Below are positions 10,458 through 55,234 of a stretch of 64,000 bases of DNA, piece after piece. The stretch is taken from the NCBI GenBank assembly GCA_902765485.1, contig CACWZZ010000003.1, forward strand, positions 1 to 64,000, read 5' to 3'. The position numbers and the translations under genes are program-made. How positions within the stretch are numbered: the first letter of the stretch is position 1; each line of letters starts with the position of its first letter. This stretch comes from an uncultured Bacteroidales bacterium (GTDB taxonomy: Bacteria > Bacteroidota > Bacteroidia > Bacteroidales > Paludibacteraceae). The notes beneath the pieces were generated by a model. It was not told where the DNA came from, ran no database searches, and was given only the letters and a program-made list of their open reading frames with translations.

Positions 10458-12947
10458 TTATCTCAAATCTACTGTTATTTTCAAATTATACCGTCTTCCT
10501 GTCAGGTAATTCGGACTGAGCCAGGGCTTGGACTCGGCGTCGTAAAGCACGAAATACGAGTTCACATTTCGCCAGCCGACGATATTAAATACCTCAAATT
10601 GGATCGCCCATTGTTTGACATGTTTGGCGGACGGAGCGCGCATGAATTTGGCGGTCTTCTCGTTGAAAACATACGTGGCACCAAGGTCGATGCGTTTGTA
10701 TGCCGGCATGTGGCGACCCGAAGCAGCCGTGCGAACCACATTCGGCAGATAGTACATCTGTCCGTCCGCAAACTGCATCTTGATATGGAATTTCAGCTGC
10801 GGCAGGCGGGGAATGTAGTCCTGAAACAGCATCGAGAAATTCCATCGCTGCTCATTCGGACTTGGCATCCAGTCTGAGGGCTGACTGCTGATACCTGACG
10901 GCTTGACAAACCGCTGCCTTGCCGCCATCGTGGAGAACGAAATCCAACTGTCCGCTCCCGGAACCAGTTCGCCGTACAACTTCAGATCCAAACCTGCCGC
11001 AAAACCCTCGGAGTCATTCTTTCCTGAATAGCGAATCCGCACATTATCAACGGTATAGCTCTCCATTCGGTCGATATATTTGTAGTACGCTTCGGCGGTC
11101 AGTTTGAACGGTCTTCCCCACGCACGGAAATAATAATCCGAACCCAGTACCACATGCACGGACCGTTGCGCTTTGAGGTCTCTGTTCAAGCGGATTCGCG
11201 TGATTCCCAACTCGTCCGTGAGGGTGTCGCGCAGCTCTTTGTAGAAAGGCGCTTGGTAATAGAGACCCGTTGCCAGACGGAAGCACACATCTCTCTTCCA
11301 ACCCGGAATCCATTCGACGGAAGCGCGAGGGGAGGGCAGCACTTCGTTATTCCAGCTCCACCATTGCAACCGTCCGCCCACATTCAGAATCCATTGACCG
11401 GAAGAAGTGTTCCATTTATGTTCGTTTTGGATGTAGCCCTGAACGCGTCCGGAGCGCATAGCGCTGTCGCCTCGCATGGCGTAGAAAAGTTCCATATCCT
11501 GTCCGTTATTCGGCATCGAATAGCCCGCAGAGTCGCGCCATTCCCATTCGCTGATATGGTCGGAGATCAGTTCCGCTTGTCCGCTCACGCCCCATCGGAG
11601 CGTGTTGCCACCGGTTTTCCATTCCCCCTTGTGCGCTAAGGTAATCACACCTGCCTCCAGACTATTGCGCGCGTGCTGGTGAAAAACACCTGTTCCCAAA
11701 GCGTCTGTTATCTCGCCTCCCGGCGCATTGGAAAGCACGTACTCACCCGTAATATCGAAATTCTCACGCTCGTTGGTATAGAATCCGCTGGCGTCAAAGC
11801 CGATCTCCACTTCTGACGGCTGACCGCTGATAGCTGATAGCTTATACCTCCCTTTCGCGCTGAGCGCCGCAAAAGTGGTCAGGAATCGGTCTTTCTCTTG
11901 ACCCTCGTAATAAATGCTGGTATGCCGCGCGTCCTGACCTCCAAACGATTCGGACAGACTGTCCGGCGAGAAAAGATAATCGTTCTGGCTCACGTTGCCC
12001 AGAAAAGACATCGTCCACCGCCGACCCGCTTTCCATGTAATGTAAGTCTGGTAATCAATATAAGTCGGCTGGTAATTGCCGGAAGTGGCAAGTCCGCCCA
12101 ACATATATTTGCTCGTTTTGTACCGCAGTCCGTGCATCTGGCTGTATGTGCTGTCGCCATGACCCACATAGAGTTGCGCGCCCAGCAAACTACCACTTAT
12201 ACTCGCCTCAAAAGCCTGCGGTCTTTTGTAAGTAATATCCAAAACGGACGACATCTTATCGCCGTATTGCGCGCCGTAACCGCCCGCGGAGAAACCCACG
12301 TTCTCCACCATTTCGGGGTTCACAAAACTCAAACCCTCCTGCTGACCGCTGCGAATAAGGAGCGGACGGTGTACTTCGATACCATTCACATACACCGAGT
12401 TCTCATCGAACGAACCGCCGCGGACATTGTATTGGCTGCTCAACTCGTTGCTCTGACTCACGCCGGCAAAAGTGATCAGCAGGCTCTCTATCGATCCGCC
12501 GGTTGCGTCCGGCATCACACGAGTCGTCGAAGCGTCAATATGATCCATCGTACCCTGCGTGTGTTTGATTCCGCGCACCTCGATCTCTGTCAATACTTGC
12601 TCGTCTGTCAGCAACTGCACATTGATATTCAGCACGTCTTTGAAATCGATAATTCGTTGCTGCACAGTGGTATAGCCGATCATCGAAAAGGATAGAACAA
12701 CCGTGTCCGCTTCCTCCAGCAAAAGCTCATAATAGCCGTTTTTGTTAGTCGCCGTTCCACCCAACAATACCCGTTCTTCTCCCTCCCTTGGGGTGGGGTT
12801 TCCCCAAGCAGCTACATTCGCCAGCTCAATTCCCACATTGTCCTGATCCACGACATAACCATATACACGTGCGTTGCGCGCGTATAAAGAAACCGTGCTC
12901 AGAATAAGCAACAGCCAAAAGTTTACTATTTTTAAGAATCTACTCAC
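10458..12947 (-). CDS. TonB-dependent outer-membrane receptor with carboxypeptidase-regulatory-like domain
   Basis: 829 aa from a GTG start (the ATG a few bases upstream is out of frame). Signal peptide 1-23; a CarboxypepD_reg-like domain at about 27-115 ([32 protein letters not shown]); a plug domain at about 125-240 containing [19 protein letters not shown] and [20 protein letters not shown]; then a 22-strand-type barrel to the C-terminus, ending [12 protein letters not shown]. No SusD partner lies next to it, so it is not a classic Sus locus; the ligand is unknown. Two stretches (minus strand, 10870-10903 and 11812-11842) are built from 7-bp CTGACGG-type repeats and add [12 protein letters not shown] and [12 protein letters not shown] to barrel loops, presumably exposed ones. 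Confidence 0.9.
10870..10903. repeat. 7-bp CTGANGG array inside the TonB receptor gene
   Basis: Degenerate units ctgaggg, ctgactg, ctgatac, ctgacgg. Read on the minus strand they encode [10 protein letters not shown] in frame. Confidence 0.7.
11812..11842. repeat. 7-bp CTGACGG array inside the TonB receptor gene
   Basis: Units ctgacgg, ctgaccg, ctgatag, ctgatag. In frame they encode [10 protein letters not shown] on the minus strand. Confidence 0.8.
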
Positions 12948-12985
12948 GTTTTAACTTCATTTCAAAATCGTTTCAAGCGGCAGAT

Positions 12986-13018
12986 CTCGCGCCACTCTCG
13001 CGCCACTCTCGCGCCGAT
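12986..13018. repeat. 11-bp tandem array (CTCGCGCCACT)
   Basis: Two exact units and one partial (CTCGCGCCGAT) in the intergenic gap between engB and the TonB receptor gene. Confidence 0.85.
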
Positions 13019-13043
13019 TTTGGAAATGTACTATTTTTAAGAT

Positions 13044-13081
13044 TTCTCAATTCTCAATTCTCCATTCTCAATTCCCCATTC
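13044..13081. repeat. 7-bp TTCTCAA array at the 3' end of engB
   Basis: Units ttctcaa, ttctcaa, ttctcca, ttctcaa, ttcccca. The last residues of EngB (GELRMEN) and its TGA stop are encoded by this array. Confidence 0.85.
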
Positions 13082-13680
13082 AGTCCCTCAATGTATGCCG
13101 TCAGTTCCTCGCCACCCAATCCGGTCTCGGAAGAAGTAACGAATACAGGCGGTAACTCTTCCCATTCTTCCAGTAATCGTTCTTTGTACTTAGTCACTTT
13201 GTCACTTAGAGCCACGCGACCGAGTTTGTCACCTTTGGTGAAAACAATCGCGAAAGGCACACCGTTCTCGCCCAACCAGTTAATGAAATCTATATCAATC
13301 TTTTGCGCTTCATGCCGGCAATCAACCAGCACAAAGAGACACACCAACTGCTCGCGCATAAGGCAATACCGCTCGATCATGCGCCGCAACGCCTCACGCT
13401 GTTTCTGACCCGCCTGCGCATACCCGTATCCCGGCAAATCCACCAAATGCCATTCCTTTGTACCTTGTACTTGGTCACTTAGTACCTTAAAATGGTTGAT
13501 CAGCAGCGTCTTTCCCGGTTTCTGGCTTGTCTTCGCCAACTTCGGATTATGGCACAACATATTGATCAGGCTTGATTTGCCCACATTGCTTCGCCCGATA
13601 AAAGCATACTCCGGCAACCCGCTCTGTGGACAATCCTTCACATCCGGAGAGGAAATAATATATTTGGCATCCTTAATCAC
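13054..13680 (-). CDS. engB: Ribosome biogenesis GTPase EngB (YsxC/YihA)
   Basis: 208 aa, normal for EngB. G1 [10 protein letters not shown]3 DLPGYGYA, G4 TKGD are all present, with a TSSETG-like G5. The protein helps assemble the large ribosomal subunit and is usually essential. Two parts of the gene are made of 8-bp CTTNGTCA-type repeats: [12 protein letters not shown] in the switch region before G3 and [11 protein letters not shown] after G4. The C-terminal residues GELRMEN and the stop codon come from a 7-bp TTCTCAA array. The start is immediately next to a third array (13681-13750). The core motifs are undamaged, so I expect function. Confidence 0.95.
13178..13212. repeat. 8-bp CTTNGTCA array inside engB
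   Basis: Units ctttgta, cttagtca, ctttgtca, cttagagc. In frame it encodes SDKVTKYKE on the minus strand. Confidence 0.7.
13459..13491. repeat. 8-bp CTTNGTCA array inside engB
   Basis: Units ctttgtac, cttgta, cttggtca, cttagtac. It encodes [10 protein letters not shown] just before the DLPGYG motif. Confidence 0.7.
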
Positions 13681-13750
13681 TTTTCACCTTTCACCTTTCA
13701 CTTTTCACTTTTCACCTTTCACTTTTCACTTTTCACTTTTCACCTTTCAC
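13681..13750. repeat. Ten-unit 7-bp array (YTTTCAC) between engB and cstA
   Basis: Ten perfect heptamers, either TTTTCAC or CTTTCAC, with no interruption. The array supplies the last residues (VKGEK) and the TGA stop of CstA at its right end and abuts the engB start codon at its left end. Ten units of 7 bp make it the most regular array in the window and a good candidate for slippage. Confidence 0.9.
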
Positions 13751-15247
13751 TCTCTTTGCCCCAAGCATAAACCCTACCAAACAACCGATGGTCACTAATC
13801 CGGCGCACAGGTATCCGATCCAACGCCATTCAACAGGCAGATGCAGACCTTCCGGCGCAATCAGAATATAACTGCTGCAAACCATCGTCATAAACAACGC
13901 CGGAATCATAGACACCAGATAGCCGTATCGGTATTTGGTACTTGGTACTTGGTCGCTTTGTCCCTTCTTGAAGAGCCAAACCGTTCCCGCCCAAAGCGTG
14001 AAGACCGCCAGCGTCTGGTTCGTCCATGCGAAATAACGCCATACGACATTGAAATCCACAAACACCATGCCGAACACACACAGGAAGAGCGGCACAGCAA
14101 TAATCAGGCGCTTCGGAATAGGACGCTGATCCCATTTCAAGAAGTCCGCTACTATCAGTCGTGCGCTACGCAAAGCCGTGTCGCCGCTCGTAATAGGAGC
14201 TGCAATCACGCCGATAATTGCTAAAATACCTCCCCCCGTTCCAAGCCAGCTGCGGCTCACTTTGTCAATCACCAGAGCGGCTATATTCTCACCCGGATGG
14301 GCGGCAGCGAATGCCTGCAGACCGTCAATGCCGTATAATCCTTTCTCCGGATCAGCAAAGAAAGTACCCGCTGCGGCTGCCCAGATCAACGCCAAAATAC
14401 CTTCCGCTACCATCGCGCCGTAGAAGATCCAACGCCCCTGACGCTCGTTCGTCACGCACCGAGCCATGATAGGACTCTGCGTACCATGGAAACCCGAAAT
14501 AGCACCACAAGCAATACTAACGAACATCATCGGAAAGAGCGGCAGACCGTTGGTTTGTCTGTTCTGCAGACCGTCAAACACCTCCGGCATTTCCGCACTA
14601 TGCCAGCCTAACATCACTACCATGATTCCTATTCCCATAAATAGCAGTATACCGCCGAAAATAGGGTAGAAACGACCGATTAACTTATCCACAGGAAGCA
14701 CCGTTGCCAGCGCATAGTAGCCAAAGATGATCAACACCCATATAATAGGAATCATGCGACCATGGAAATCCATCGTCCCGAGTCCCGCCAAACCTTGCAA
14801 CAGAGTTGCAGGACCGCTCAAAAAGGTCGTCGTCAGCAGGATTAGCAAAACGAGAGACAGCACACGCATGAACAATTTCGTGCCTTGTCCCAACTCGTCG
14901 CCAATAATATCCGGCAGCGAAGCACCGCCTTTGCGGATAGAAAGCATTCCGCTCAAATAATCATGTACGCCTCCGGCGAAAATAGTACCGAATACGATCC
15001 ACAGGAATGCCGCCGGACCATAGAAAATACCCATAATAGCACCGAAGATCGGACCCAGTCCCGCAATGTTCAGAAACTGAACCAGAAAGATACGCCATGG
15101 AGCCATCGGTACAAAGTCCACACCATCCGTTTTGGTCAATGCCGGCGTCTTACGCTCCGGCTCTACACCGAAGATTTTCTCCACCAGCGTTCCGTACGTA
15201 GAGAATCCCACCACCAGCAGGATTAAAGCAATGATAAATGTAATCAT
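13733..15247 (-). CDS. cstA: Carbon starvation protein CstA family transporter
   Basis: 504 aa, about 13-14 membrane helices. Family blocks: DFVPMAPWRIFLVQFLNIAG (about 45-64), GPIFGAIMGIFYGP, FGTIFAGGVHDYLSGMLSIR (about 87-106), ISGFHGTQSPIMARCVTNE, and GVIAAPITSGDTALRSARL. CstA-type carriers import peptides or pyruvate; Bacteroidales commonly have one short member. The stretch GQSDQVPSTKYRYG (13931-13965) is made of 8-bp repeats and sits in a cytoplasmic or periplasmic loop; the last five residues come from the 7-bp array. A consensus promoter (15274-15304) with a palindrome over the start point precedes it, and the leader is only about 20 bases. Confidence 0.9.
   Translation of the reverse strand: MITFIIALILLVVGFSTYGTLVEKIFGVEPERKTPALTKTDGVDFVPMAPWRIFLVQFLNIAGLGPIFGAIMGIFYGPAAFLWIVFGTIFAGGVHDYLSGMLSIRKGGASLPDIIGDELGQGTKLFMRVLSLVLLILLTTTFLSGPATLLQGLAGLGTMDFHGRMIPIIWVLIIFGYYALATVLPVDKLIGRFYPIFGGILLFMGIGIMVVMLGWHSAEMPEVFDGLQNRQTNGLPLFPMMFVSIACGAISGFHGTQSPIMARCVTNERQGRWIFYGAMVAEGILALIWAAAAGTFFADPEKGLYGIDGLQAFAAAHPGENIAALVIDKVSRSWLGTGGGILAIIGVIAAPITSGDTALRSARLIVADFLKWDQRPIPKRLIIAVPLFLCVFGMVFVDFNVVWRYFAWTNQTLAVFTLWAGTVWLFKKGQSDQVPSTKYRYGYLVSMIPALFMTMVCSSYILIAPEGLHLPVEWRWIGYLCAGLVTIGCLVGFMLGAKRVKGEK
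13931..13965. repeat. 8-bp CTTGGTNN array inside cstA
   Basis: Units tttggta, cttggta, cttggtcg, ctttgtcc, ctt. It encodes GQSDQVPSTKYR in frame. Confidence 0.7.
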
Positions 15248-15251
15248 ACCA

Positions 15252-15272
15252 AGCCTAATTTACAATTAGGCT
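15252..15272. promoter_or_regulatory. Palindrome over the cstA start point
   Basis: AGCCTAATT, 3-base spacer TAC, AATTAGGCT: a perfect 9-bp inverted repeat lying between the -7 element and the start codon, covering the expected transcription start (about 15267). It may be an operator for a dimeric regulator, or a 5'-end mRNA hairpin. Confidence 0.6.
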
Positions 15273-15273
15273 G

Positions 15274-15304
15274 CAAAGGTACAACTTTTTTTTGACATAT
15301 ACAA
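15274..15304 (-). promoter_or_regulatory. Promoter of cstA
   Basis: Minus strand TTG (15302-15304), 20 bp, TACCTTTG (15274-15281), a full consensus match. Confidence 0.8.
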
Positions 15305-15375
15305 GAAAAAGATGATAAATCATCAAAAACTTTCTAAATACCTTTACCAAGTACTTTTACTAAATTACCTTTCAC

Positions 15376-15408
15376 CCCCGTGACCACCCCGTGACCACTC
15401 CATGACCA
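15376..15408. repeat. 11-bp tandem array (CCCCGTGACCA)
   Basis: Two exact units followed by CTCCATGACCA, in the gene-free stretch between cstA and tRNA-Val. Confidence 0.85.
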
Positions 15409-15465
15409 TTACGTACATGTAAGTACCCAGACCGGGCTGCGGGGAGAAGGCCGTAGTGCCTTCCA

Positions 15466-15499
15466 CACAAGAAAAGGACACCGTTTGGTGTCCTTCTTG
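15466..15499 (-). terminator. Hairpin behind tRNA-Val
   Basis: Nested stem: CACAAG outside and AAGGACACC/GGTGTCCTT inside with a 4-base loop. The T tract on the minus strand is short (CCTTTTCTT), so termination may be partial. Confidence 0.65.
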
Positions 15500-15574: not shown

Positions 15575-15603
15575 TCATTTCTGCTCTTTTTCAAAAGCGA
15601 GTG

Positions 15604-15634: not shown

Positions 15635-15679
15635 ATTTTTTTGCAAAAAAATGCACTTTACCCCTCATTTTTTTGCTTT

Positions 15680-16414
15680 TTACTGCTTTTTACCTCCTAA
15701 AACACGGTAATTATACCATTTTTTGTCCTCATAGCGGCTCAATACTATATAACAAAGAAGTGTTATCCCTATACCGATAATTATTCCCCCGAATACATCT
15801 CTCGCGAAATGCTGGCTCAGGTAAATCCGGCTATAGCCACCCAGTGCCGCCAAAAAGAATAGCGACACTTGCCCAATAATACTCCAGATCCCAGAATACC
15901 TAGTTAAACTAGTTCTACTAGATATACTAGTTCTACTAGATCTACTAGTTCCACTAGTTTTACTAGTCAAAAGAATACACGCCACAAAAGCCAGCGCAAA
16001 AAAACTCGTAGTATGGCCGGAGGGGAAGGAAAGCCAATAATTCATCTTGACACCTTCTACCAGCGGCAGTTGCACTTCCGGCATAAACTGCTCAAACCAC
16101 GTCACCGGACGAAGGGCATTGAATATATGCTTGAGAACTTGCGTCGAGAGAGCCGAAAGAGCCATGGCTGACGTCGCAAACACACCGTCTCCGATGCGGC
16201 TGAATAGCAGCAATGCGACACACACTACATACGGAAACCATTCTGCCACATGCGTATAATACCTATAGAATATATCGCGCGCGGGCGTGTGACGGTCGCA
16301 TAGCAACAGGTGCAACTCGCCCTGCGGTATATATATAAGGGCTAAGCCCAATACTAATAGTAGTATCAGGCTTAGCGATATAAATACAGCGTTATTTCGA
16401 AAGAATGTTCTCAT
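15680..16414 (-). CDS. PAP2-family membrane phosphatase
   Basis: 244 aa with about five to six membrane helices. The three PAP2 catalytic blocks are present: KHIFNALRP (about 90-98), FPSGHTTSFF (about 130-139) and GYSRIYLSQHFARDVFGG (near 195-212). Such enzymes remove phosphate from lipid or undecaprenyl pyrophosphate. The ATG overlaps the stop of the 932-aa surface-protein gene (16411) by 4 bp. Between blocks 2 and 3 a 9-bp repeat array (15908-15968) adds a Ser/Arg/Thr stretch beginning TSGTSRSSRTS to a loop; the catalytic parts are intact. Confidence 0.9.
   Translation of the reverse strand: MRTFFRNNAVFISLSLILLLVLGLALIYIPQGELHLLLCDRHTPARDIFYRYYTHVAEWFPYVVCVALLLFSRIGDGVFATSAMALSALSTQVLKHIFNALRPVTWFEQFMPEVQLPLVEGVKMNYWLSFPSGHTTSFFALAFVACILLTSKTSGTSRSSRTSISSRTSLTRYSGIWSIIGQVSLFFLAALGGYSRIYLSQHFARDVFGGIIIGIGITLLCYIVLSRYEDKKWYNYRVLGGKKQ
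15908..15970. repeat. 9-bp array (ACTAGTTCT) inside the PAP2 gene
   Basis: Seven units starting ACTAG: ACTAGTTCT, ACTAGATAT, ACTAGTTCT, ACTAGATCT, ACTAGTTCC, ACTAGTTTT, ACTAGTCAA. A 9-bp unit keeps the frame whatever the copy number. Confidence 0.9.
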
Positions 16415-26035: not shown

Positions 26036-26105
26036 GGCTGAAAAGGTTAAAATCTTAATAATCGTATATTTTTTGTGCCCCAAAAGGGCTATTTTTGTGT
26101 CGGTT

Positions 26106-26151
26106 GTGTCTCGTATGTGTCTCGTATGTGTCTCGTATGTGAGTCGTATGT
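26106..26151. repeat. 11-bp tandem array (GTGTCTCGTAT)
   Basis: Three exact units and one variant (GTGAGTCGTAT) between the endonuclease gene and pssA; a further half unit (tgtgtcggtt) lies to the left. Confidence 0.9.
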
Positions 26152-30208: not shown

Positions 30209-30230
30209 TTTTTGTTATTTATTTTTTATT

Positions 30231-30256
30231 TTCAATTTTCAATTGTCAATTCTCAA
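30231..30256. repeat. 7-bp TTCAATT/TTCTCAA array between lipoprotein and ppiD-like genes
   Basis: ttcaatt, ttcaatt, gtcaatt, ctcaa. It begins right at the stop codon of the lipoprotein gene. Confidence 0.7.
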
Positions 30257-31179
30257 AAGTTCGGGTTGGTGGATTGCTCGATGAATCCTTGTACCGGCTC
30301 GCATGTGCCGTTGTAGTTCTGGATTTTTGCATTCACCAGCACGGTGTCGCCTACCATCACTTGGTTGATATTGGTGAATTTGTTGTTTGCGCTCTTGTAG
30401 AACAGGCGGAAGCAGGTTGCTGTCACCTCGCCGTCCGAAGAGATGTTGAAGGTCATGTTGCCGTAGTTGCTCAGCGTCTTGTCGGTCACGCTTGTCACCA
30501 CGCCGCGGATCTTATAGCTCTCGCTGGTCGTCTTGCCTGCTCCGATGCTGTCGCAAATCTCTTTAGCGCGGTTCACGCTGATTTCGCCTTCACCCGGCTC
30601 AGGACAGCCCGGGAACGGAGGGAATACCTCGTTGAAATGCGCGTTGCTGGACGAATAAGTGCCACACGTTCCGCTGCTCTCAATGATACCGTTATAGTTC
30701 TGGATCTTGCATTTCACCACCACGAAATCGCCGATCTGCAATGCGTCGTGATCGGGCAGCGGAGCGCCGTTCTTGCCCAATATACGGTAGCAATAGAACT
30801 CTTTCGAACCCTTGCCGTCGTTCCGGGCGCTCAGATAAACGTAGTCGTTGCCGTATTGGGCAAACTTGCTCTCGAAATCCGATTTCGAACGCTGGGTCTC
30901 GTCGAAACGTCTTACCCAGCCTTTGATATAATATTCCTCGTCAGATGACTGTCCGGCTGCTAATTTCTGACCTATCTTCACCGCCTCGTTCACATTGATC
31001 GTTCCTGCCGGAATCGCTACGCCCGCCGGATCCGGTGTCGGATCGGGATCTGCAATAGACGGCATGGTGTCATTCTTGGTCATCTCATTGTCACCCGGTG
31101 CGTTGATATACGGACTTTCCTTGCAACCGATAAATGCCAACGCGATAGCTGTGGTTAATACCAATAAACTCTTCTTCAT
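30253..31179 (-). CDS. Lipoprotein with two OB-fold-like repeats
   Basis: 308 aa. Lipobox AFIGC puts the lipid on Cys19. Two similar halves of about 120 residues follow: VNEAVKIGQKLAAGQSSDEE with YYIKGWVRR, then VNRAKEICDSIGAGKTTSES with YKIRGVVTS; each ends GDxVxVxxKIQNYNG. This is the pattern of the OB-fold domains (DUF6359-like) seen in Bacteroidales surface lipoproteins and nucleases. A Pro/Asp-rich linker joins the first half to the anchor. Role unknown; the fold suggests binding of a nucleic acid or sugar. It is the first gene of the operon and has a consensus promoter. Confidence 0.8.
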   Translation of the reverse strand: MKKSLLVLTTAIALAFIGCKESPYINAPGDNEMTKNDTMPSIADPDPTPDPAGVAIPAGTINVNEAVKIGQKLAAGQSSDEEYYIKGWVRRFDETQRSKSDFESKFAQYGNDYVYLSARNDGKGSKEFYCYRILGKNGAPLPDHDALQIGDFVVVKCKIQNYNGIIESSGTCGTYSSSNAHFNEVFPPFPGCPEPGEGEISVNRAKEICDSIGAGKTTSESYKIRGVVTSVTDKTLSNYGNMTFNISSDGEVTATCFRLFYKSANNKFTNINQVMVGDTVLVNAKIQNYNGTCEPVQGFIEQSTNPNF

Positions 31180-32629: not shown

Positions 32630-32656
32630 GCTCGCATTTTGCGAGCTCTTTTTTTA
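32630..32656 (+). terminator. Terminator of the infC-rpmI-rplT operon
   Basis: GCTCGCA, loop TTT, TGCGAGC, then TCTTTTTTTA. The convergent dapA gene ends inside its T tract (dapA stop at 32654-32656). Confidence 0.9.
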
Positions 32657-33523
32657 TCTGACATCTGATATCTGACGGCTGACGGCTGACATCTGACAGC
32701 TTAATTCCTCGCTTGCAGGAACAAGCGGCAGCCTTAGATTATTCTCTATCAATCCCTTTTGCGCCAGAACGGCTTTGATACCAACCGGATTGCCTTCTGC
32801 AAAGAGGAGTTTGATCATCTCTGCGTACTTCGCCTGCAAGGCTGCATCTTTGTCATGCACGATGTGCCAGAAGTCCTCCGGGAACACGTTGCTCGCTACG
32901 GAGATCAATCCTGCAGCTCCTGCTTCCATCAGTTCGCACGCTATACCGTCATCGCCGGAGATGACGCTGAATGCTGCATGCTGACGGCTGATAGCTATCA
33001 AATGCTTGATCTGCTCTACGTTGCCGGACGCTTCTTTGATGCCGCAGATCTTATCGGGGTGGGCATTGTAGATGCGCATAACGGTCTCCGGCAGCAGGTT
33101 CACGCCCGTGCGCCCGGGTACATTATATAATATCACGGGAATCGGACTTGCTTCCGCTACTGCGCAGAAATGCTGGAAGAGTCCTTCCTGATTCGGCTTG
33201 TTGTAGTACGGACAAACGCTCAGTATGGCGCTAAACCCGCTTAAGTCCATCGAGCGCAAACTCTCGCATACCGCCGCCGTGTTATTGCCGCCAACGCCTA
33301 ATACCAGCGGCAGACGCCCACGGACGTAGTTAACGATGAACTGTCTGACCTCTTTCTTCTCTTCTTCGGTCATAGTAGCGGCTTCGCCGGTGGTACCCAG
33401 CACAACGATGTAATCCACAAAGCCTGTCAACTGTGTATCCAGCAGGCGCGCCAATGCGTCGTAATCCACGCTCTTATCTGCTTTGAAGGGCGTGATAAGT
33501 GCCGTTCCGAGTCCTTTAATCAT
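32654..33523 (-). CDS. dapA: 4-hydroxy-tetrahydrodipicolinate synthase
   Basis: 289 aa. Catalytic residues are all visible: Thr44-Thr45 in VVLGTTGEAAT, Tyr133 and Arg138 in YNVPGRTG, and the Schiff-base Lys163 in GIKEASGN. The enzyme joins pyruvate and aspartate semialdehyde in the lysine/meso-diaminopimelate pathway. The last 14 residues (CQMSAVSRQISDVR) are encoded by a six-unit 7-bp CTGACNN array and do not belong to the family core. A second short stretch (AISRQHAAF) near residue 180 also looks repeat-derived. The start overlaps the DUF6913 gene by 8 bp; the stop lies in the terminator of rplT. Confidence 0.96.
   Translation of the reverse strand: MIKGLGTALITPFKADKSVDYDALARLLDTQLTGFVDYIVVLGTTGEAATMTEEEKKEVRQFIVNYVRGRLPLVLGVGGNNTAAVCESLRSMDLSGFSAILSVCPYYNKPNQEGLFQHFCAVAEASPIPVILYNVPGRTGVNLLPETVMRIYNAHPDKICGIKEASGNVEQIKHLIAISRQHAAFSVISGDDGIACELMEAGAAGLISVASNVFPEDFWHIVHDKDAALQAKYAEMIKLLFAEGNPVGIKAVLAQKGLIENNLRLPLVPASEELSCQMSAVSRQISDVR
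32657..32703. repeat. Six-unit 7-bp array (CTGACGG type) at the 3' end of dapA
   Basis: ctgacat, ctgatat, ctgacgg, ctgacgg, ctgacat, ctgacag. It encodes the DapA tail MSAVSRQISD. Confidence 0.9.
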
Positions 33524-34068: not shown

Positions 34069-36126
<2,058 letters not shown>

Positions 36127-37719
36127 TTATCGAATGATCAATTTATGCGAGATAACAGTTCCGCGGTAGTAGAAATGCAGCACATACAACCCCTTCGGCA
36201 GCGGCAAGAATCGCTTTACTTCGTCCGGCAGGTTTATGTTGTCGTTTGATAGCGTGTAGTATTTGGTGCGTTTCTCGAAGATGTCCCCCTGATAAAGGAT
36301 CTTCGTTGGCGGGCAAATCCGGTAGCCGTTGATGCTGTAGATGTCGAAATAGATCATAGGATCCTCGTTCTGCTCCGTATAGATATAATAGAAGGAGAGG
36401 CTGTCTTTTCCCATGTCGGCATTGTTGAAATACGGCACAATCGGTTGCGAGAGCGTGCTGTCCAGTTTCAGACCCACCAAAACCGGGTCGTGGTCCGAGC
36501 AGCGGAACATGGTCTGGTCGGAGGACTTGTCGTACGTATAATAATCGTCCTCGTCGGAGTTGATATGGTATCCTGCCATGCCGGTTACTTGGCGATAGAG
36601 CGTCTCGTTGCTGATGGCGTGGTCGATGTAACTTGCCAAACCGCCGAACATATAGCTGTAACTGCTGTCGGCGTGAAAAGCGCGATGGAGGTCGAGCATA
36701 TTGCTCTTCTCGGTAAACACCATGATCGGATCGGTCTTGGCGTAGCAGTTCATATCGCCCATGATCAGCACATCGTTTTCTGCGATATTGGGGTAGCGAC
36801 GGTAGGAATTATAGAGCGAAACGACCGCTTTTGCTTCGTTCTCGCGGCGGTCTGCTCCGCCTGTATTCATCGATTTGAAATGGTTGATCGAATAGATGAA
36901 TTTCTCGCCCGTGGCGATCTCTCGGAAGCAAACCATTTTCTTGCGGTAAGGCAGCTCTACGTTGGTTTCCACAGGCGTGCCGACGGGTTCTACTGTGTTG
37001 GCGTCATAGACGAAATCCACTTTCTGGGACGTACCCGTTGCGGCTTCGCGGAAGAACTGGTAATTGCGTTTCGGGAGGTTCTTATTCAGGTCGCTGACGA
37101 TCTCCGAGATTGCTTCGTTTCCTTGCTGCAACTCCACCAGACCGTATATGTCGGCGTTTATCTTCTTCAGCGCTTTGCTGACCTTGGCGCGCTGGTCTTG
37201 GTGCTCCGAATAGCTCCGCGCACCCATCGAACCAAATGTGAGATAATAGTTCTCCAGGTTGAATCCGCATACCAGCAGCCGGTAATCACCCAGCTCCGGC
37301 AGACCTGCTTCCAGTTCCGCGCGCGTGTTACCACGCCATGTGCCGCTCTGCATACCCAAGGCGGAGGTGCTAATCACTTTCGCACGCAGACCATAAATCT
37401 TCTCGCCGCAACGGTGGTAACCGCTTACGCCGCTCAAACTGAACATACAGGTGCTATTAATCCGCACGGTCTCGTTGTATTCCGCCGAACCCGCCACGCC
37501 TTGGCATTCCGGCTGAAAACGCCGCCAAGGCGATACGATATAATTGCCGTTTGCGTTATTGCAAACGATCATCGGCATGTCGAAGACCACCGTTTGTCCG
37601 ATATATTCCTTCAATGCCTGGCCGCTCCACGTGCCGCTATCCGGCAGCGCGATATGCACTTCGGCTGCGATACTCAACGCGCAGAACAGAAACGCAACGA
37701 GTGAAATTCGTGTTTTCAT
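36127..37719 (-). CDS. Secreted endonuclease/exonuclease/phosphatase-family protein
   Basis: 530 aa, signal peptide 1-18. An N-terminal OB-like part (about 20-130) is followed by an EEP fold: LVCGFNLENYYLTFG, INADIYGLVELQQGNEAI with the metal-binding Glu, DVLIMGDMNCYAKTDPIMVF, and CSDHDPVLVGLKL with the catalytic Asp-His pair. This matches extracellular nucleases of Bacteroidota. The C-terminus (LPKGLYVLHFYYRGTVISHK, LIIR) is a type IX-like sorting end. It is the first gene of the operon with ligA, which begins right after it, and has its own consensus promoter. Confidence 0.85.
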   Translation of the reverse strand: MKTRISLVAFLFCALSIAAEVHIALPDSGTWSGQALKEYIGQTVVFDMPMIVCNNANGNYIVSPWRRFQPECQGVAGSAEYNETVRINSTCMFSLSGVSGYHRCGEKIYGLRAKVISTSALGMQSGTWRGNTRAELEAGLPELGDYRLLVCGFNLENYYLTFGSMGARSYSEHQDQRAKVSKALKKINADIYGLVELQQGNEAISEIVSDLNKNLPKRNYQFFREAATGTSQKVDFVYDANTVEPVGTPVETNVELPYRKKMVCFREIATGEKFIYSINHFKSMNTGGADRRENEAKAVVSLYNSYRRYPNIAENDVLIMGDMNCYAKTDPIMVFTEKSNMLDLHRAFHADSSYSYMFGGLASYIDHAISNETLYRQVTGMAGYHINSDEDDYYTYDKSSDQTMFRCSDHDPVLVGLKLDSTLSQPIVPYFNNADMGKDSLSFYYIYTEQNEDPMIYFDIYSINGYRICPPTKILYQGDIFEKRTKYYTLSNDNINLPDEVKRFLPLPKGLYVLHFYYRGTVISHKLIIR

Positions 37720-40655: not shown

Positions 40656-40692
40656 TTTATAAATCACAAATAACAAATAATCATTTAATCTT

Positions 40693-44235
<3,543 letters not shown>

Positions 44236-44261
44236 TCCACGCGTGTACGCGTAATAATAAG

Positions 44262-44295
44262 GAGAGGCATCCGTCGGGTGCCTCTCTTTTGTTTT
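44262..44295 (+). terminator. Terminator of nifJ
   Basis: GAGAGGCA stem with TGCCTCTC (extended by a T-G pair), followed by TTTTGTTTT. Confidence 0.9.
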
Positions 44296-44315
44296 GCCTA
44301 ACATTTTCTCTTTGT

Positions 44316-44636: not shown

Positions 44637-46226
44637 ATGGCAGATATCAAAGTTTTCATAAGTAGCGTCCAAAAGGAATTCGCCCATGAGCGGCGGCTCT
44701 TGTGCGACTACATCCGCACAGACGGCTTGCTCGGCCGGTTCTTCGTGCCGTTTATTTTTGAAGACATGCCGGCATCGGAGGTCTCTGCGCAGAAAGCCTA
44801 TCTCACCCAAGCAGCGGAATGTCATATCTACCTCGGCATTCTCGGCACCCAGTATGGCTACGAGGACGAAGAAGGTATCTCGCCCACCGAACGCGAATAT
44901 GATACGGCTACGGCTCACCACGCGCACCGGCTGATTTATACGCTGCGCACAGACACGCCGCGTACCCCTAAAGAGCAAGCCTTCATCGGCAAGGTGGAGC
45001 AAGAGGTTGTCCGCCGTGGTTTTGCCACTTACGACGAACTGCGCACGGCTGTTTATAACTCGCTTGTGGATTATCTGGTTCGGAAAGAGATCGTCCGCCG
45101 TGTGCCTTTTGATGCAGCGGCTCATCCGGTAGCCACGTATGACGATATCGACCCGGAGAAAGTGCGCACTTTTGTGAACCGTGCCAAAGAGAAACGCAAT
45201 TTCCCGCTGAATTTCGAAGATGGTATCGAGAAAATCTTCTCCGCTATCCATGTGCTCACGGACGACGGCCGTCTGACGAACTCTGCCTTACTGCTTTTCG
45301 CCAAAGACCCACAACGCTTCTTCCGCACTTCGGAAGTCCGCTGCGCCCAGTTCTATGGAACGAAAGTGGAAAAACCCATCCGCAATTATCAGGTCTTTAC
45401 CGGTTCGCTTTTTGAGATGATTGACAAGGCGGTGGGTTTTGTCATGTCGCGTATCGACGCACGTGTGGGCAAACGTGACCTCTCGCCGGACGCTCCTGTG
45501 GAGTATGAACTGCCGGAGAGCGCGGTAGCCGAGGCGATTGCCAATGCCGTAGCGCATCGTGACTATACGAGCAATGCGAGTGTGCAGGTCATGCTTTTCC
45601 GCGACCGTCTGGAGATTTGGAATCCCGGCAGACTGCCTGATGGTTTTACTATCCAGAAACTGCATGAGGTACATCGCTCCGAACCGACCAACCCCGTACT
45701 GGCTCATCCGCTTTTCATGGCTGGCTATATTGAGCATCTGGGCACAGGTACTACGGATATGATTGCCGATTGCGAAGCCCTTGGTCTCCGCACGCCCGAA
45801 TTTATCCAAGCGGACGATTTCCGAACGATTATCTATCGTCAGGAAAAAGAAACAGAGCAGCCCCCAAAAGTGTCAAACCCGACCGAAAAAGTAACAGAGC
45901 AAGAGCAAAAAAGTAACCAAGTGGAGCAAAAAGTGTCAGACCATGGGCAAAAAAGTAACCAAGCGGATCCCAAAAGTAACCAAGCAGAGCCCCAAAGTAA
46001 CCAAGTACGTCTAACCGCGAAGCAGCGAAAAGTGTTAGACTTCTGTGATGAGACACCGCGTACAGCTCAGGAGATTTTGGAAATGCTTGGTGTGCAGAAC
46101 CAAAACAAGACCCGCCAGCAGTACACCACCAAATTAGTGCTTGCCGGACTTCTGCGCCCGACCACCACGCATAAAAACGACTCCAACCGTCGTTACATCA
46201 CCGCCCATCCCTCCACCGACCAATGA
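44637..46226 (+). CDS. DUF4062-HATPase (RecG-like) protein with repeat linker and winged helix
   Basis: 529 aa. The N-terminal 100 residues match DUF4062 (KVFISSVQKEFAHERRLLCD, YLGILGTQYGY, SPTEREYDTA), a TIR-like fold found in defence and signalling proteins. The middle (about 200-395) matches the RecG-like/HATPase_c_4 region: GRLTNSALLLFAKDPQRFF, ELPESAVAEAIANAVAHRDY with the GHKL Asn, LEIWNPGRLPDGF and HLGTGTTDMI. Residues about 415-460 are a low-complexity linker with repeated KSNQ. A winged helix (LTAKQRKVLDFCDETPRTAQ) ends the protein. Similar proteins are regarded as transcription regulators or defence factors. Base composition is like the housekeeping genes, unlike the AT-rich operon that follows. 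Confidence 0.85.
   Translation: MADIKVFISSVQKEFAHERRLLCDYIRTDGLLGRFFVPFIFEDMPASEVSAQKAYLTQAAECHIYLGILGTQYGYEDEEGISPTEREYDTATAHHAHRLIYTLRTDTPRTPKEQAFIGKVEQEVVRRGFATYDELRTAVYNSLVDYLVRKEIVRRVPFDAAAHPVATYDDIDPEKVRTFVNRAKEKRNFPLNFEDGIEKIFSAIHVLTDDGRLTNSALLLFAKDPQRFFRTSEVRCAQFYGTKVEKPIRNYQVFTGSLFEMIDKAVGFVMSRIDARVGKRDLSPDAPVEYELPESAVAEAIANAVAHRDYTSNASVQVMLFRDRLEIWNPGRLPDGFTIQKLHEVHRSEPTNPVLAHPLFMAGYIEHLGTGTTDMIADCEALGLRTPEFIQADDFRTIIYRQEKETEQPPKVSNPTEKVTEQEQKSNQVEQKVSDHGQKSNQADPKSNQAEPQSNQVRLTAKQRKVLDFCDETPRTAQEILEMLGVQNQNKTRQQYTTKLVLAGLLRPTTTHKNDSNRRYITAHPSTDQ
45893..46005. repeat. Degenerate repeat coding for KSNQ(V/A)(E/D)(Q/P) linker
   Basis: Four copies of aaaagtaaccaagNNGA with intervening variants; protein pieces KSNQVEQK, KSNQADPK, SNQAEPQ, SNQV. 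Confidence 0.8.
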
Positions 46227-51604: not shown

Positions 51605-51608
51605 TACT

Positions 51609-52574
51609 ATGGCACAGAAGGAAAAAATGTATCAAATCAAAGTTCCTGTATATACCAGTGCGGGAATAGAAGGACTGACGCAGAGTTTATTTGGCTACAT
51701 GTCTTACAAAGAAATGAATGAGGCAATAAAGCAACAAATAAAAGATGCAAAATATCCGTATTTTATTAATAGTAGAGTGAAAACGAAAACTACTATTATA
51801 GATTCTGTCATCTGTAAAGATGTTATTGTTGATGGAAGAGATGCTTTGCTCTTAAGAATCTCAGCCTATAACACGAACCTATACGGCGGATATTTTGAGG
51901 ATGATACGAAGCGTAAACGCGAAATAACAAACACGAATAGGATAGGTAGTGATAATAATTTTGTGTTGCTATTCCCTATGATGCTGGGTATCTCCGATGA
52001 AGAGACGAATTATTATTTCTTAATGCTTGTATATGAAGACCCCTCCAAAGATACGGGAGAAGTTGTGAAACTTGCCAAAGTGTTGCTTAATAAGATGCTT
52101 AATATCCCCATGCAAAATATTAAGATGGAAACAGTAATGGAGGAGTTGCGTATAAGTAAAAGAATTCCGGAATTGAATCTTAAATTTTCCTCTTTAGACG
52201 AAGGAGATAATAATGTCGATGCGCGGTTCAAAGAGTATCTGGTAAAGACAAAGACTATTCAAAAGAAAGAACGCAAATTTGAATATGTGCCCTCTGATTT
52301 GATTAATGAAGTTATAAATGACACTACGGATGTAGATGTTTCGAAATACGATACTCGAGAGGCACAAATCAAATTAGGAAGAAAGGAATACCGTATTAAA
52401 CATATGCTGCATGAAGCGAATGAGGAAATTCAGGACACCATAGAGCGAATATTCAATGCAAGCGTAGAAGTAACCAAAGAAGAAATGGATAATAAAAAAA
52501 TATACGATACGGAATTTATTGTTGAGAAATTAACAGCTGTCATGAATAACTATTTGTCTTATGGAGATAAATAA
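51609..52574 (+). CDS. Soluble protein paired with a small membrane protein in the RM operon
   Basis: 321 aa, not recognised. No signal peptide or membrane helix. Visible features: SLFGYMSYKEMNEAIKQQIK near the start, ALLLRISAYNTNLYGGYFED, FVLLFPMMLGISDEETNYYF, and a basic, helical C-terminal third. Its size, its small membrane partner (overlap of 14 bp) and the strand-helix-basic-strand middle part are like the 305-aa protein at 2188, hence the rexA-like hypothesis, but residue identity between the two is not evident by eye. It starts 4 bp after the RM gene, so all are co-expressed. It could be a sensor of cut DNA or of phage components. Confidence 0.5.
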   Translation: MAQKEKMYQIKVPVYTSAGIEGLTQSLFGYMSYKEMNEAIKQQIKDAKYPYFINSRVKTKTTIIDSVICKDVIVDGRDALLLRISAYNTNLYGGYFEDDTKRKREITNTNRIGSDNNFVLLFPMMLGISDEETNYYFLMLVYEDPSKDTGEVVKLAKVLLNKMLNIPMQNIKMETVMEELRISKRIPELNLKFSSLDEGDNNVDARFKEYLVKTKTIQKKERKFEYVPSDLINEVINDTTDVDVSKYDTREAQIKLGRKEYRIKHMLHEANEEIQDTIERIFNASVEVTKEEMDNKKIYDTEFIVEKLTAVMNNYLSYGDK

Positions 52575-52974
52575 TATCCTATCTGATTTAATAACACTCT
52601 ATTTTGCCATATTGGGAATCCTATTTGGCATATTTACTGTGTTATGGTCATTTATTTTGTCTAAGCGCGATGAGTTGTTGGTGGCACTTGAAGATTTGAG
52701 ACAAAATAACAAAAGGCCTTTACTGGTTAAAAAAGTATCACTTTTAAAATCGTATATATGCCATCTAAAAAAAGTTAACGCGTGGTGTGTTAGTGATATA
52801 TTGGGAACCTTATTTATGTTGTCTGCGTGTTGGGTATCGCTGCGTTTTACTCATGACTACTGTCAAGAGATTTGTTTTTGGATAATTGTAGGTCTAAGCG
52901 CAATATGCATTGTGGGATTGATGATACAATCTGTTTTTCTTTGGATTAACTATAAAAATTATTCCAAGATATAA
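52561..52974 (+). CDS. Small membrane protein of the RM operon (RexB-like position)
   Basis: 137 aa with three membrane helices: about 11-33 (TLYFAILGILFGIFTVLWSF), 79-97 (DILGTLFMLSACWVSLRF) and 105-130 (CFWIIVGLSAICIVGLMIQS). A charged cytoplasmic-type loop of about 45 residues separates the first two. The first helix region resembles helix 2 of the 149-aa protein at 1683 (ILYGLIGVLFSVAMSLIIAF), so the two may be distant relatives. No enzyme motif. It overlaps the upstream gene by 14 bp and shares one base with the downstream start codon, showing tight coupling. Confidence 0.55.
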   Translation: MEINNILSDLITLYFAILGILFGIFTVLWSFILSKRDELLVALEDLRQNNKRPLLVKKVSLLKSYICHLKKVNAWCVSDILGTLFMLSACWVSLRFTHDYCQEICFWIIVGLSAICIVGLMIQSVFLWINYKNYSKI

Positions 52975-53795
52975 TGAGGTCTGGTGTAATATATCTATAT
53001 ACATTTCCAAACGGCAAAGTGTATGTTGGGCAAACTCGGCGTGATCCTAAAGTGCGGCATAGAGAACATCTTGATCCCAAAATAGGTCCGACAAATAGCG
53101 CCTTTTGGAAAGCATACCAAGAACAAGGCGAACCGAAATATGAGATCTTAGAAACGCATCAATTTGAGAATGTGGAAGAACTGATAGATGTACTTAATGA
53201 ACGCGAAACATATTATATCAATTTCTATCAATCTACAAACACCGAACATGGGTATAATGTAAAACCATCCGGAACCGTTGGACTGCATGGAGAGCCAAAG
53301 ATATGCAGGCTGTTTGATGCGTACTATCATATGTATATGCAAAACATATGGCCGCATTTCAAAGAGGTAGAAAAGAAAGTGGAGAAAGGCGAAGAACTAA
53401 ATGAGGAAGAAAATGAAGTCTATCAAGATTATTTTGTAGAGAAGAATGTTTTTTATAAAGAAAACGGAGAACACAAAACAGATGAATTGATATATGAGCA
53501 TTGGTTTGATTTTGCGGAATTCTGCTTGCAGGATGATATACGGACTTATGCACATGAGTATGTTCATGAAAATGCAGCACAATTATTAGATGAATATATA
53601 GACAAGGAAACAATATATCAACTTAACTCCGATGGTGAAATTATTGCCAAGTTTGATTCTCAACAAGATGCCGCTACAGCAATGGGAGCAAAAAACGCAG
53701 CAAATATCAATAACGCTGTCCTCGGCAAGCAGAAAACAGCCTATGGCTATCGCTGGGTAAAAGCTATAGATTATCAACAACCGCATAAAGAATAG
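52974..53795 (+). CDS. GIY-YIG nuclease-family protein with NUMOD1-like C-terminal piece
   Basis: 273 aa. The N-terminal 95 residues are a GIY-YIG domain: GVIYLYTFPNGKVYVGQTRR gives the two motifs (as IYLY and VYVG), with Arg in HREHLD and Glu in ERETYYINFYQS. The middle (about 110-210) is acidic and unrecognised. The last 60 residues (IYQLNSDGEIIAKFDSQQDA, then AANINNAVLGKQKTAYGYRW) match the NUMOD1-type DNA-binding repeat of homing endonucleases. So it may be a mobile-nuclease derivative or the operon's second nuclease. It starts at the last base of the membrane-protein stop (TAATG). Confidence 0.8.
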   Translation: MRSGVIYLYTFPNGKVYVGQTRRDPKVRHREHLDPKIGPTNSAFWKAYQEQGEPKYEILETHQFENVEELIDVLNERETYYINFYQSTNTEHGYNVKPSGTVGLHGEPKICRLFDAYYHMYMQNIWPHFKEVEKKVEKGEELNEEENEVYQDYFVEKNVFYKENGEHKTDELIYEHWFDFAEFCLQDDIRTYAHEYVHENAAQLLDEYIDKETIYQLNSDGEIIAKFDSQQDAATAMGAKNAANINNAVLGKQKTAYGYRWVKAIDYQQPHKE

Positions 53796-53950
53796 TTTTG
53801 CTCACATAATAACAGAAAATGCATTTTTTCTAAAAAAAACTTGCTTTTTGAGTGATAGATTTCAGGTCTTTTTTGACTTATATATGGAGGGGTATATATA
53901 AACACGAATCTATTAACACAAAACACAACGGATAAAATATTATCAAATAT

Positions 53951-54162
53951 ATGAGTACCAAACAATCCATAGGGTTCTACAAAGACCGCGAAGTGCGGGC
54001 TATATGGAATGATGAACAAAGCAAGTGGTTCTTTTCCATCGTAGATATAGTGGCCGCAATTACCGAAAGTCCCCGCCCACGTGTCTATTTACAACTATCA
54101 ACGACCGTGAGTTGTTCATGAAAGGAATAGACTATTCTTATTACTACGAACAAGAAGATTAA
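53951..54162 (+). pseudogene. Remnant of a Bro-N-type gene
   Basis: The first 45 residues (KQSIGFYKDREVRAIWNDEQ, WFFSIVDIVAAITESPRPRVY) are a Bro-N-like start as in phage antirepressors and DinD-like proteins, then a stop comes at 54119-54121. In another frame the DNA continues NDRELFMKGIDYSYYYEQED to a stop at 54160-54162. The piece between is missing, so a deletion with frameshift has removed most of the gene. The AT-rich composition fits the preceding operon. It marks the right end of the accessory segment. Confidence 0.7.
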
Positions 54163-54164
54163 CC

Positions 54165-54308
54165 ATGCCTTGTCCGCATAATAACATAGATTGCCCTTGT
54201 CCGAAAGACTGCCCGCGGCACGGGCATTGCTGCGCCTGCGTAGCACATCATAAAGCCGTAGGGGGTAAGCTGCCGGCATGCCTCCGAGGCATTGACTGGC
54301 AGAAATGA
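54165..54308 (+). CDS. Small cysteine-rich protein (DUF6485-like)
   Basis: 47 aa: MPCPHNNIDCPCPKDCPRHG, then HCCACVAHHKAVGG and KLPACLR. Eight Cys and several His in a spacing that suggests metal binding. I relate it to the DUF6485-type family with the pattern CxCxxxxCxxxGxCCxCxxxHxxxxxLPxC. It lies 33 bp ahead of the SBF symporter gene on the same strand and may be co-expressed with it. Function unknown; zinc binding is a guess. Confidence 0.65.
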   Translation: MPCPHNNIDCPCPKDCPRHGHCCACVAHHKAVGGKLPACLRGIDWQK

Positions 54309-54340
54309 GAACAATCTCCGCATCATAATATACAGAAACT

Positions 54341-55234
54341 ATGAACACCATCTTTATCGTACTGCCGATATTAACTATTCTGATGTTTGACTTGGGCTTG
54401 GTGCTCAAGCCTGCCGACTTCAGACTGATAGCCGAACGCCCGAAGCCGGTGATTATCGGGCTGGTCGGGCAGATTATACTGCTGCCGCTCATTGCGTGGG
54501 GGCTGATAGAGCTGTCAGCCATCAGCTTTCAGCATTCAGCTATCAGCGTCCAGCTGTCGGCATTCAGCGTCATCGGTATCATGCTGGTGGCGTGCAGTCC
54601 GGGTGGGAGTTCGAGCAATGTGTTCTCAATGCTGGCGAAAGGCGATGTAGCGCTGTCGGTGACGCTGACGGCGTGCAGCAGTATCCTCACGCTCTTCACC
54701 CTGCCGCTTATCATGGCGTGGGTGACTGCCGGAGTAGGGGAGGCGGTGAATATCCATCTGCCCGTCGGCAAACTGCTGATACAGAATATCGTGCTGATGG
54801 TAGTGCCTATCTCTGTCGGATTTATCGTGAACCTCTACCGCCCGGGGACAGCGGCGAAGATACATAATGTGCTCAAGCGCATTGCCATGCCGGCGTTGGT
54901 GCTGTTGGTGACAATCTTTTTTATTCAGCACAGACAGACTATCGTAGCCGAGTTCGGTTCGCTGGGACTGATGATGACGGTCCTTATCCTTGCCACGACG
55001 GGCTGCGGCGCGTTGCTGGCATGGCTGTTCCGCCTGAGCGGCAGAGAACGCCGCACGCTGGTCATCGAGATAGGCATGCAGAACGCCGCGCAGGCAATCA
55101 CCATCGCCTGCAGTCCCTTGATATTTAACAACGAACTCATCGCCGTCCCGGCAATCATCTACGCGCTGGTGATGAACCTTGTTCTGTTGGCGTATGTGGG
55201 ATTGACCAAGCTGTCTTGTCCTGAAAGAAGTTGA
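54341..55234 (+). CDS. Bile acid:sodium symporter (SBF) family protein
   Basis: 297 aa, nine to ten membrane helices. Family blocks: VLPILTILMFDLGLVLKPAD at the start, LVACSPGGSSSNVFSMLAKG (about 83-102) and EIGMQNAAQAITIACSPLIF (about 246-265), the two conserved discontinuous helices. It is likely a Na+-coupled carrier for an organic anion; the substrate need not be a bile acid. Between helices 2 and 3 a nine-unit 7-bp array adds ELSAISFQHSAISVQLSAFS, which replaces or lengthens a loop. The array is the longest in-frame example in the window. Confidence 0.9.
   Translation: MNTIFIVLPILTILMFDLGLVLKPADFRLIAERPKPVIIGLVGQIILLPLIAWGLIELSAISFQHSAISVQLSAFSVIGIMLVACSPGGSSSNVFSMLAKGDVALSVTLTACSSILTLFTLPLIMAWVTAGVGEAVNIHLPVGKLLIQNIVLMVVPISVGFIVNLYRPGTAAKIHNVLKRIAMPALVLLVTIFFIQHRQTIVAEFGSLGLMMTVLILATTGCGALLAWLFRLSGRERRTLVIEIGMQNAAQAITIACSPLIFNNELIAVPAIIYALVMNLVLLAYVGLTKLSCPERS
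54508..54572. repeat. Nine-unit 7-bp array (NNNTCAG) inside the SBF gene
   Basis: ctgtcag, ccatcag, ctttcag, cattcag, ctatcag, cgtccag, ctgtcgg, cattcag, cgtcatc: the same family as the CTGANGG arrays, read on the other strand. Confidence 0.85.

Follow-up and report, generated by a model that had tools for sequence, protein, structure and literature searches.

How does short-repeat DNA come to form part of conserved proteins? The question is raised by the first 64,000 nucleotides of contig 3 of an uncultured rumen Bacteroidales genome (hereafter the window and G000, respectively; 2.12 Mb in 41 contigs, 82.8% complete), whose closest LigA records belong to metagenome-assembled Bacteroidales, many of them ruminant-derived and several titled Paludibacteraceae. 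Here, tandem arrays of a degenerate seven-base unit, CTGANNG, lie within genes for a TonB receptor, the ligase LigA, DapA and an SBF symporter. It is our view that these arrays are probably degenerate heptanucleotide microsatellites, which are seeded by copying, lengthen and shorten by slippage, are kept where gene function allows it and move from one species to another. They belong to a repeat class that is dispersed in nearly all sampled species of the genus, CTGANNG being an abundant family in this one.

The window was scanned with the pattern CTGANGGCTGANGG, allowing up to 2 mismatches, and 24 matches were found, as compared with a mean of 4.1 and a maximum of 9 in 100 shuffles. Four of the 24 are lone single matches elsewhere, while the clustered ones mark the TonB-receptor, dapA, ligA and SBF genes. 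This bears out the first-pass annotation, made from the letters alone, which had seen one heptamer family twice in the receptor gene, twice in ligA, at the end of dapA and in the SBF gene; an array inside dapA is additional to its list. In particular, the receptor gene, read from the - strand, carries arrays at 10874..10901 and at 11812..11849 (pattern matches 11813-11840), and dapA, likewise on the - strand, carries one at its 3' end (32656..32703; matches 32665-32692) and the additional one in an internal loop (32967..32999; matches 32974-32994). In ligA, also on the - strand, arrays lie at the border of the HHH and BRCT domains (34291..34326; matches 34294-34321) and at that of the Ia and adenylation domains (35875..35912; matches 35879-35906). 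All six run on the + strand; in the SBF symporter gene, on the + strand, about nine degenerate units run on the - strand at 54510..54572 (matches 54512-54546).

The Pfam families found in these genes are DHDPS, NAD-dependent ligase, SBF and TonB plug, and the arrays were said to sit at domain borders, in loops or at the C-terminus. Both LigA arrays indeed fall between Pfam domains: the N-terminal one covers approximately residues 73-84, with Nlig-Ia (20-62) before it and the adenylation domain (85-324) after it, and the C-terminal one, at approximately residues 600-609, follows HHH_2 (525-587) and precedes BRCT (611-684). One dapA array is C-terminal. The translations, such as LQPSAISHQ from one of the two LigA arrays, MSAVSRQISDVR from DapA and LSAISFQHSAISVQLSAFS from SBF, fit the (A/V)ISxQPSA(V/I)S type that had been described for the LigA, DapA, SBF and TonB-receptor genes. 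The N-terminal LigA stretch is 9 residues longer than in structure 2owo, which we take to be an E. coli-type LigA, and the SBF stretch is 11 residues longer than in the transporter structure 3zuy. Most likely, the array peptide is a tolerated linker. When nine relatives were probed for the tail of dapA, it was found in five, that of the sister genome G167 (record RUG13776) being cut off. In four of the five the gene ends in ...ATAAAAAAAGAGCTCGCRTRA, which codes for IKKELA and overlaps a terminator-like stem, and the fifth is nearly the same. In G000, ATAAAAAAAGAGCTCGCA is kept, and the array upstream of it has moved the frame: the gene now ends in AGA TAA, the C-terminus of the relatives is replaced, and the codons that end the gene there lie downstream of the new TAA stop. 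These leftover codons are a trace of the insertion. The description of the arrays as being in frame thus holds for the six others and not for the dapA end, which is frameshifted.

Are these arrays peculiar to a few genes? It had been proposed to scan the genome for the family, and the scan shows it to be widespread: three consecutive CTGANNG units match 259 times in the whole of G000, as opposed to 2 times for the reversed control pattern, and among the matches listed they are spread over contigs C1 to C10. A 464-kb sample of G000, composed of the window and 20 further stretches picked partly around hits, contains 76 exact period-7 runs, whereas Markov sequence contains none; exact runs of periods 11, 14 and 21 number 34, 44 and 34, and periods 11, 9 and 8 are likewise raised. 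A looser detector finds 87 seven-base arrays in this sample and none in one Markov copy, with arrays present in the window and in 18 of the 20 stretches. It misses three of the window's seven in-gene CTGANNG arrays (TonB 10874, the dapA loop and SBF), so its counts are low, and, since the stretches were picked partly around hits, the density of 18.8 arrays per 100 kb may be high. The heptamer families include AATTGAG, AAAGGTG, AAAGTTG and others besides CTGANNG, and CTGANGG is just one among several. In other words, seven-base units stand head to tail far above chance and are dispersed at unrelated sites, which makes them heptanucleotide microsatellites. Shuffles and Markov copies exclude a chance origin. 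An artefact of assembly is unlikely because four arrays (TonB 10874, 30211, ligA 34291 and 61298) are letter-identical in the separately recorded G167.

With genes called by a codon-usage script (coding fraction 0.867), 44 of the 87 sampled arrays lie inside called genes, 13 at gene edges and 30 between genes. The mainly intergenic siting reported for earlier heptamer examples, which does not define the class, therefore does not hold here. The coding share differs by family, being 27 of 33 for CTGA and 0 of 11 for GTGA. What is more, the sense strand of the 44 in-gene arrays reads TCA in 37 cases and TGA in none, seven being uninformative, while the TGA orientation is found in 12 of the 13 edge arrays. 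Given that the TGA orientation carries stop codons, the bias inside genes requires no targeting. Only the stop-free orientation is seen in called genes, and this is a filter by gene function.

Would relatives carry the same stretches as ordinary protein sequence? Comparison of the LigA, dapA, SBF and TonB loops rules this out. For the N-terminal LigA loop, 110 loci were collected, 23 were dropped as identical and 87 kept, one of them unscored; in LigA, family names were assigned by a mix of rule and eye, and in the other three genes by eye alone. The loop is short in 30 of the 87 (LGKKG in 27, another six-residue sequence in 3). Heptamer arrays of GGACAAA, GGTTACG and AAAGTCR fill it in 7 cases each, of GTACAAGG in 8 (two of them under the periodicity threshold), of GGCGAAA in 5 and of CTGANGG in 3; a palindromic dispersed sequence (3), a 36-residue insert (3) and other sequence make up further occupants. 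A quick tree was built with the insert columns excluded, and 25 of its 84 inner branches are weak. It requires no fewer than 43 changes of loop state over the 86 scored genes for 21 states, where 20 changes would do if each state had arisen once; the difference between short and filled alone changes 19 times. As judged by eye, the picture is similar in the other genes: the dapA loop (21 relatives) holds, for example, AAGAGTC, ACAATTC and AAAATTA arrays, the SBF loop (10 aligned of 16 other loci) holds TTTCACC and CAATTTT arrays, the TonB loops (21 relatives) show a pattern of the same type, and many of the loops are short. Left out were SBF and TonB loci that shared too few 4-mers. On alignment, then, the same loops in relatives are short or occupied by other heptamer families or dispersed repeats, which supports the proposal that the stretches are insertions. 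The outcome named in advance as counting against that proposal, the same residues in relatives without any periodicity in the DNA, was not obtained, relatives lacking the stretches or having unrelated sequence in their place. One LigA locus, L219 (record RUG11941), titled Ruminococcaceae, belongs to this Bacteroidales group; its identity to L089 is 0.94, and the title of the record may be wrong.

How the arrays change can be read from G167, whose LigA is the nearest found (94% amino-acid identity). In 384 kb of G167 and its ligA locus, 14 of the 87 sampled G000 arrays could be placed: five are equal in length, four differ in length, two face native sequence and three face different or partly different repeats. 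The four pure length changes amount to 7, 7, 42 and 56 bases, all multiples of 7. Namely, a TTCTCAA array at the 3' edge of a GTPase gene (13040..13081) and a TATTTGA array (58633..58662) are one unit shorter in G000, a TCACYTT array at a gene edge (13673..13754) is 56 bases (8 units) longer, and an ATTGAGA array upstream of a gene (60131..60201, + strand) is 42 bases (6 units) longer. A GGTACTT array at 13926..13957, in the next called gene after the TCACYTT array, has the same length in both, and two intergenic arrays, an AT-rich TCAATTN one (30211..30258) and an AATTAAA one (61298..61330, + strand), are identical. By direct alignment, the TonB 10874 and C-terminal ligA arrays are identical as well, while the SBF array of G000 exceeds that of G167 by 21 bases, with the frame kept. 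Unit number therefore shifts by whole seven-base steps, and by 21 bases in the one resolved coding case. The two arrays that face native sequence are TonB 11812, where G167 has 16 native-type bases, and ligA 35875, where it has the short LGKKG loop; the dapA loop holds in G167 a longer, unrelated dispersed element between flanks that are 0.94 identical.

The surroundings of these sites differ. Around the N-terminal ligA array, identity to G167 falls to 0.74-0.83 per 100-base bin over approximately 0.8 kb (35600..36400), as against 0.84 to 1.00, and mostly 0.88-0.97, in the bins outside. Such a drop is the mark of import, and this array difference apparently sits in a divergent homologous tract imported from another species, although a close donor is not among the sampled species (best 0.87-0.88). 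Neither TonB 11812 nor the dapA loop lies in a tract divergent from G167. At TonB 11813, the 16 native bases of G167 contain no CTGA; in both genomes, however, a native GCTGAG is found some 20 bases from the site, which is not in phase with the array and could have acted as seed or microhomology. At the N-terminal ligA site, a native CTGA-like motif is present on the opposite strand.

On these grounds, we envisage the following course. A short patch of an existing array would be copied to an unrelated site by illegitimate template switching, replacing a few native bases; the array would then grow or shrink by slippage, be retained only where the protein tolerates it, and pass between species as an allele via recombination. 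Such spread would require no function. Short-patch double illegitimate recombination would be a seeding mechanism of this kind, and no paper on the mechanism itself was among the literature matches listed. The first-pass annotation had argued for an active process, such as template switching or a targeted element, rather than chance slippage. Template-switch-like copying is plausible, given the native bases without CTGA at TonB 11813 and flanks there without a divergent tract, and the family is far denser in this lineage, three consecutive CTGANNG units occurring about 12 times per 100 kb in the whole G000 genome and about once in the G167 sample (4 in 384 kb). The opposition to slippage, on the other hand, is not supported, given the whole-unit length changes and the 21-base difference in SBF, and neither is a targeted element: the siting is consistent with loops, domain borders and C-termini being tolerant, the same loops are occupied by unrelated dispersed repeats, and one array difference lies in the imported homologous tract. 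No dedicated element turned up, no systematic search aimed at one having been made, and no terminal inverted repeats or target-site duplications were noticed at the loops set beside relatives, by eye only and without a systematic test.

As for the distribution of the arrays, three consecutive CTGANNG units are found in 14 of 24 genus-mates and 1 of 16 order-mates, and four consecutive TGAN4 units in 148 of 151 genus genomes, G000 included, and in 114 of 148 other genomes of the order. Among 25 genomes, GGGTTAN in three units occurs in 11 and is absent from G000, and AAAGGAC in three units occurs in 5; species therefore differ in their array vocabulary. Four order genomes of other families (G221, G242, G198 and G218) contain hundreds of seven-base array matches, with about a thousand each of TGA and AGT in G221. 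Viral contigs hold 103 stretches that match CTGANGG units repeated more than three times, and CTGANGG arrays may also exist in viruses or mobile DNA of other hosts.

Could a dedicated process, be it a template-switching polymerase, a reverse transcriptase or a small mobile element, write heptamers with a TGA core? In G000, TGA or TCA is present in 72 of the 87 consensus units, where letter shuffles would lead one to expect 24; adjacent units hardly ever differ in the core, in contrast to other registers; and TGA exceeds AGT in 115 of the 151 genus genomes, the reverse holding in 34. Across the rest of the order, however, no such preference is seen (TGA favored in 58 of 148 genomes, AGT in 62), so that a universal TGA rule, hinted at by the G000 units, is not upheld, the GGACAAA and GGTTACG inserts of LigA contain neither TGA nor TCA, periods of 11, 8 and 9 are raised too, and other dispersed repeats use the same loops. 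We therefore hold a dedicated process to be rather improbable, and quite improbable also a TGA-centred copying activity of the genus, with arrays as templates, a fixed core and variable flanks, whose species-own vocabularies are inserted as interchangeable linkers. Slippage that acts on a chance short motif at the site itself, with nothing copied in from other sites, would account for the frequent whole-unit length changes, for a 26-base sister stretch that resembles the short form of an 82-base array, and for the native GCTGAG near TonB 11813. It sits badly with the replaced bases there, which lack CTGA, with a GCTGAG that is out of phase, with a native ligA motif on the other strand and with the recurrence of one family across unrelated genes, and there is little to be staked on it. 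That the arrays are contingency loci for phase variation is suggested by tandem repeats within genes whose unit number varies; with genes such as ligA and dapA among the hosts, a frame-keeping change of 21 bases in SBF, and LigA inserts of nearly fixed length (14 residues in 7 of 7 GGTTACG cases and 16 in 6 of 7 GGACAAA cases, though 12-31 in GGCGAAA), this is very improbable indeed.

A more substantial alternative, if still an unlikely one, is that the in-gene arrays are for the most part old alleles of the loops, which homologous recombination has shuffled among species, new insertions being few. It would explain the diverged tract around the N-terminal ligA array, the scatter of LigA-site families on the tree and the sharing of the TonB 11813 array by G000 and another genome, G050, and not by the sister. 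Moreover, among 1529 pairs of LigA inserts between genes less than 85% identical, 21 have near-identical inserts (at least 90%, the limit by which they were picked), averaging 95% where the genes average 80%. The flanks of these 21 pairs, a few of which do have long identical flanks, are 0.79 (left) and 0.84 (right) identical, compared with 0.80 for the genes; those of pairs with different inserts, in which more distant genes are included, are 0.70 and 0.73. Flanks only about as similar as the genes imply either very short exchange tracts or repeated seeding. Averaged over same-family LigA pairs, the flanks are no more similar than in pairs of other kinds; the flank signature of recombination is thus missing overall in these pairs, and it shows up in one sister comparison, at the N-terminal ligA tract. 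TonB 11813 and the dapA loop lack a divergent tract, and the roughly 12-fold higher density of CTGANNG in G000 than in the G167 sample needs new insertion or mass loss.

That said, several observations weigh against seeding by copying followed by slippage, filtering and exchange. The seeding step was never caught in a strain pair. The native state at TonB 11813 is ancestral by inference, with the array shared by G050 and the out-of-phase GCTGAG close by, and near-identical LigA inserts occur in distant species within flanks that are mostly only as similar as the genes. Three-unit CTGANNG arrays are missing from 10 of the 24 genus-mates, and the single family-mate outside the genus (one genome) has no TGAN4 heptads in four units. 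Finally, variation is concentrated by register, which uniform slippage plus mutation does not predict: in TGA-aligned adjacent units, differences at registers 1-7 number 60, 18, 28, 11, 3, 78 and 52 of 278. A motif-free test finds such clustering in G000 (z 7.4) and G007 (7.9), more weakly in G008, G014, G018 and G022 (z 2.6-3.7), and none in G001 (1.3) or G011 (1.1, from two arrays). Duplicated variant units yield register clustering as well, and the clustering is therefore at most suggestive.

The window holds other features besides. A further array, of GTTAGAG, is intergenic (56104..56159, + strand). Arrays of 9-base (CTAGTTCTA) and 11-base units lie at 15900-15967, 26105-26151, 12985-13015 and 3249-3278, and a longer repeat of about 42 bases at 45886-46006, within the open frame 44637-46226. 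A dispersed GC-rich palindromic sequence (AACCCCACCC...CCTCCC..AAGGGAGGG) is found at 12780-12830 and at several sampled loci, with 16 pattern matches in G000, some of them double-counted, as compared with 2 for the reversed pattern; a relative of it occupies the LigA loop in three other species. Two open frames on opposite strands, each about 1,200 codons long, overlap almost completely at 40681-44304. Pfam matches (pyruvate:ferredoxin oxidoreductase domains) fall on the + frame only, for which reason the other is probably a shadow frame.

What do these arrays mean for the proteins concerned? They show one way in which microsatellite DNA turns into protein sequence within conserved genes, and it has done so time and again at the same loops. 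With their different arrays, the many species offer a natural experiment: it can tell which protein loops put up with an insertion and how short repeats get from one site to the next. At the same time, they call for caution, as differences in the length of housekeeping genes in these bacteria can stem from repeats and not from adaptation.

The short tandemly repeated repetitive (STRR) heptamers of heterocystous cyanobacteria, including those in rnpB, are likewise dispersed arrays, found in tolerant loops of a conserved RNA gene. The literature on heptamers and tandem repeats in Bacteroidetes, Bacteroidales, Paludibacteraceae and the rumen yielded, among the matches listed, no paper on heptamer arrays in conserved genes of this group, subscription coverage being thin. 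Of the published systems, the TAACTGA direct repeats of marine Beggiatoaceae, some cyanobacteria and five Bacteroidetes (PMC4679880) include two sets in Paludibacter propionicigenes and one within a Flexibacter purC gene. There, the repeats can be translated in the reverse orientation (LSVISYQ) and run into stops in the forward one. Both they and our arrays consist of seven-base tandem units, and TAACTGA rotates to CTGATAA, which is near CTGANNG; however, they are mostly intergenic and of one exact unit, whereas the arrays here are degenerate, fall into several families per genome and lie in genes in about half of the sampled cases. The GGGNATC-type repeats of Xanthomonas and Nostoc (PMC4692102) resemble ours in being degenerate heptamer arrays spread over the genome, in which certain positions are conserved and the rest vary, but they form G-quadruplexes and are under-represented in coding regions. 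The survey of long simple sequence repeats by Mrazek (2007, via PMC4679880), in which heptamers were the most abundant and slippage was proposed, shares the seven-base enrichment and is not about entry into conserved genes. Finally, in the P6b loop of the Nostoc tRNA-Leu intron, Class I (TDNGATT) and Class II (NNTGAGT) repeats, two unrelated classes of degenerate heptamers, occupy one loop and replace each other repeatedly in a manner that does not track phylogeny (PMC4476775). The LigA site, with six named heptamer families and short loops, shows the same kind of class replacement. The setting is different, being one loop of a group I RNA intron there and protein-coding and intergenic DNA here, with many families and several protein-coding loops. 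Heptamer microsatellites as such are thus known, while their scale inside conserved genes appears to be new.

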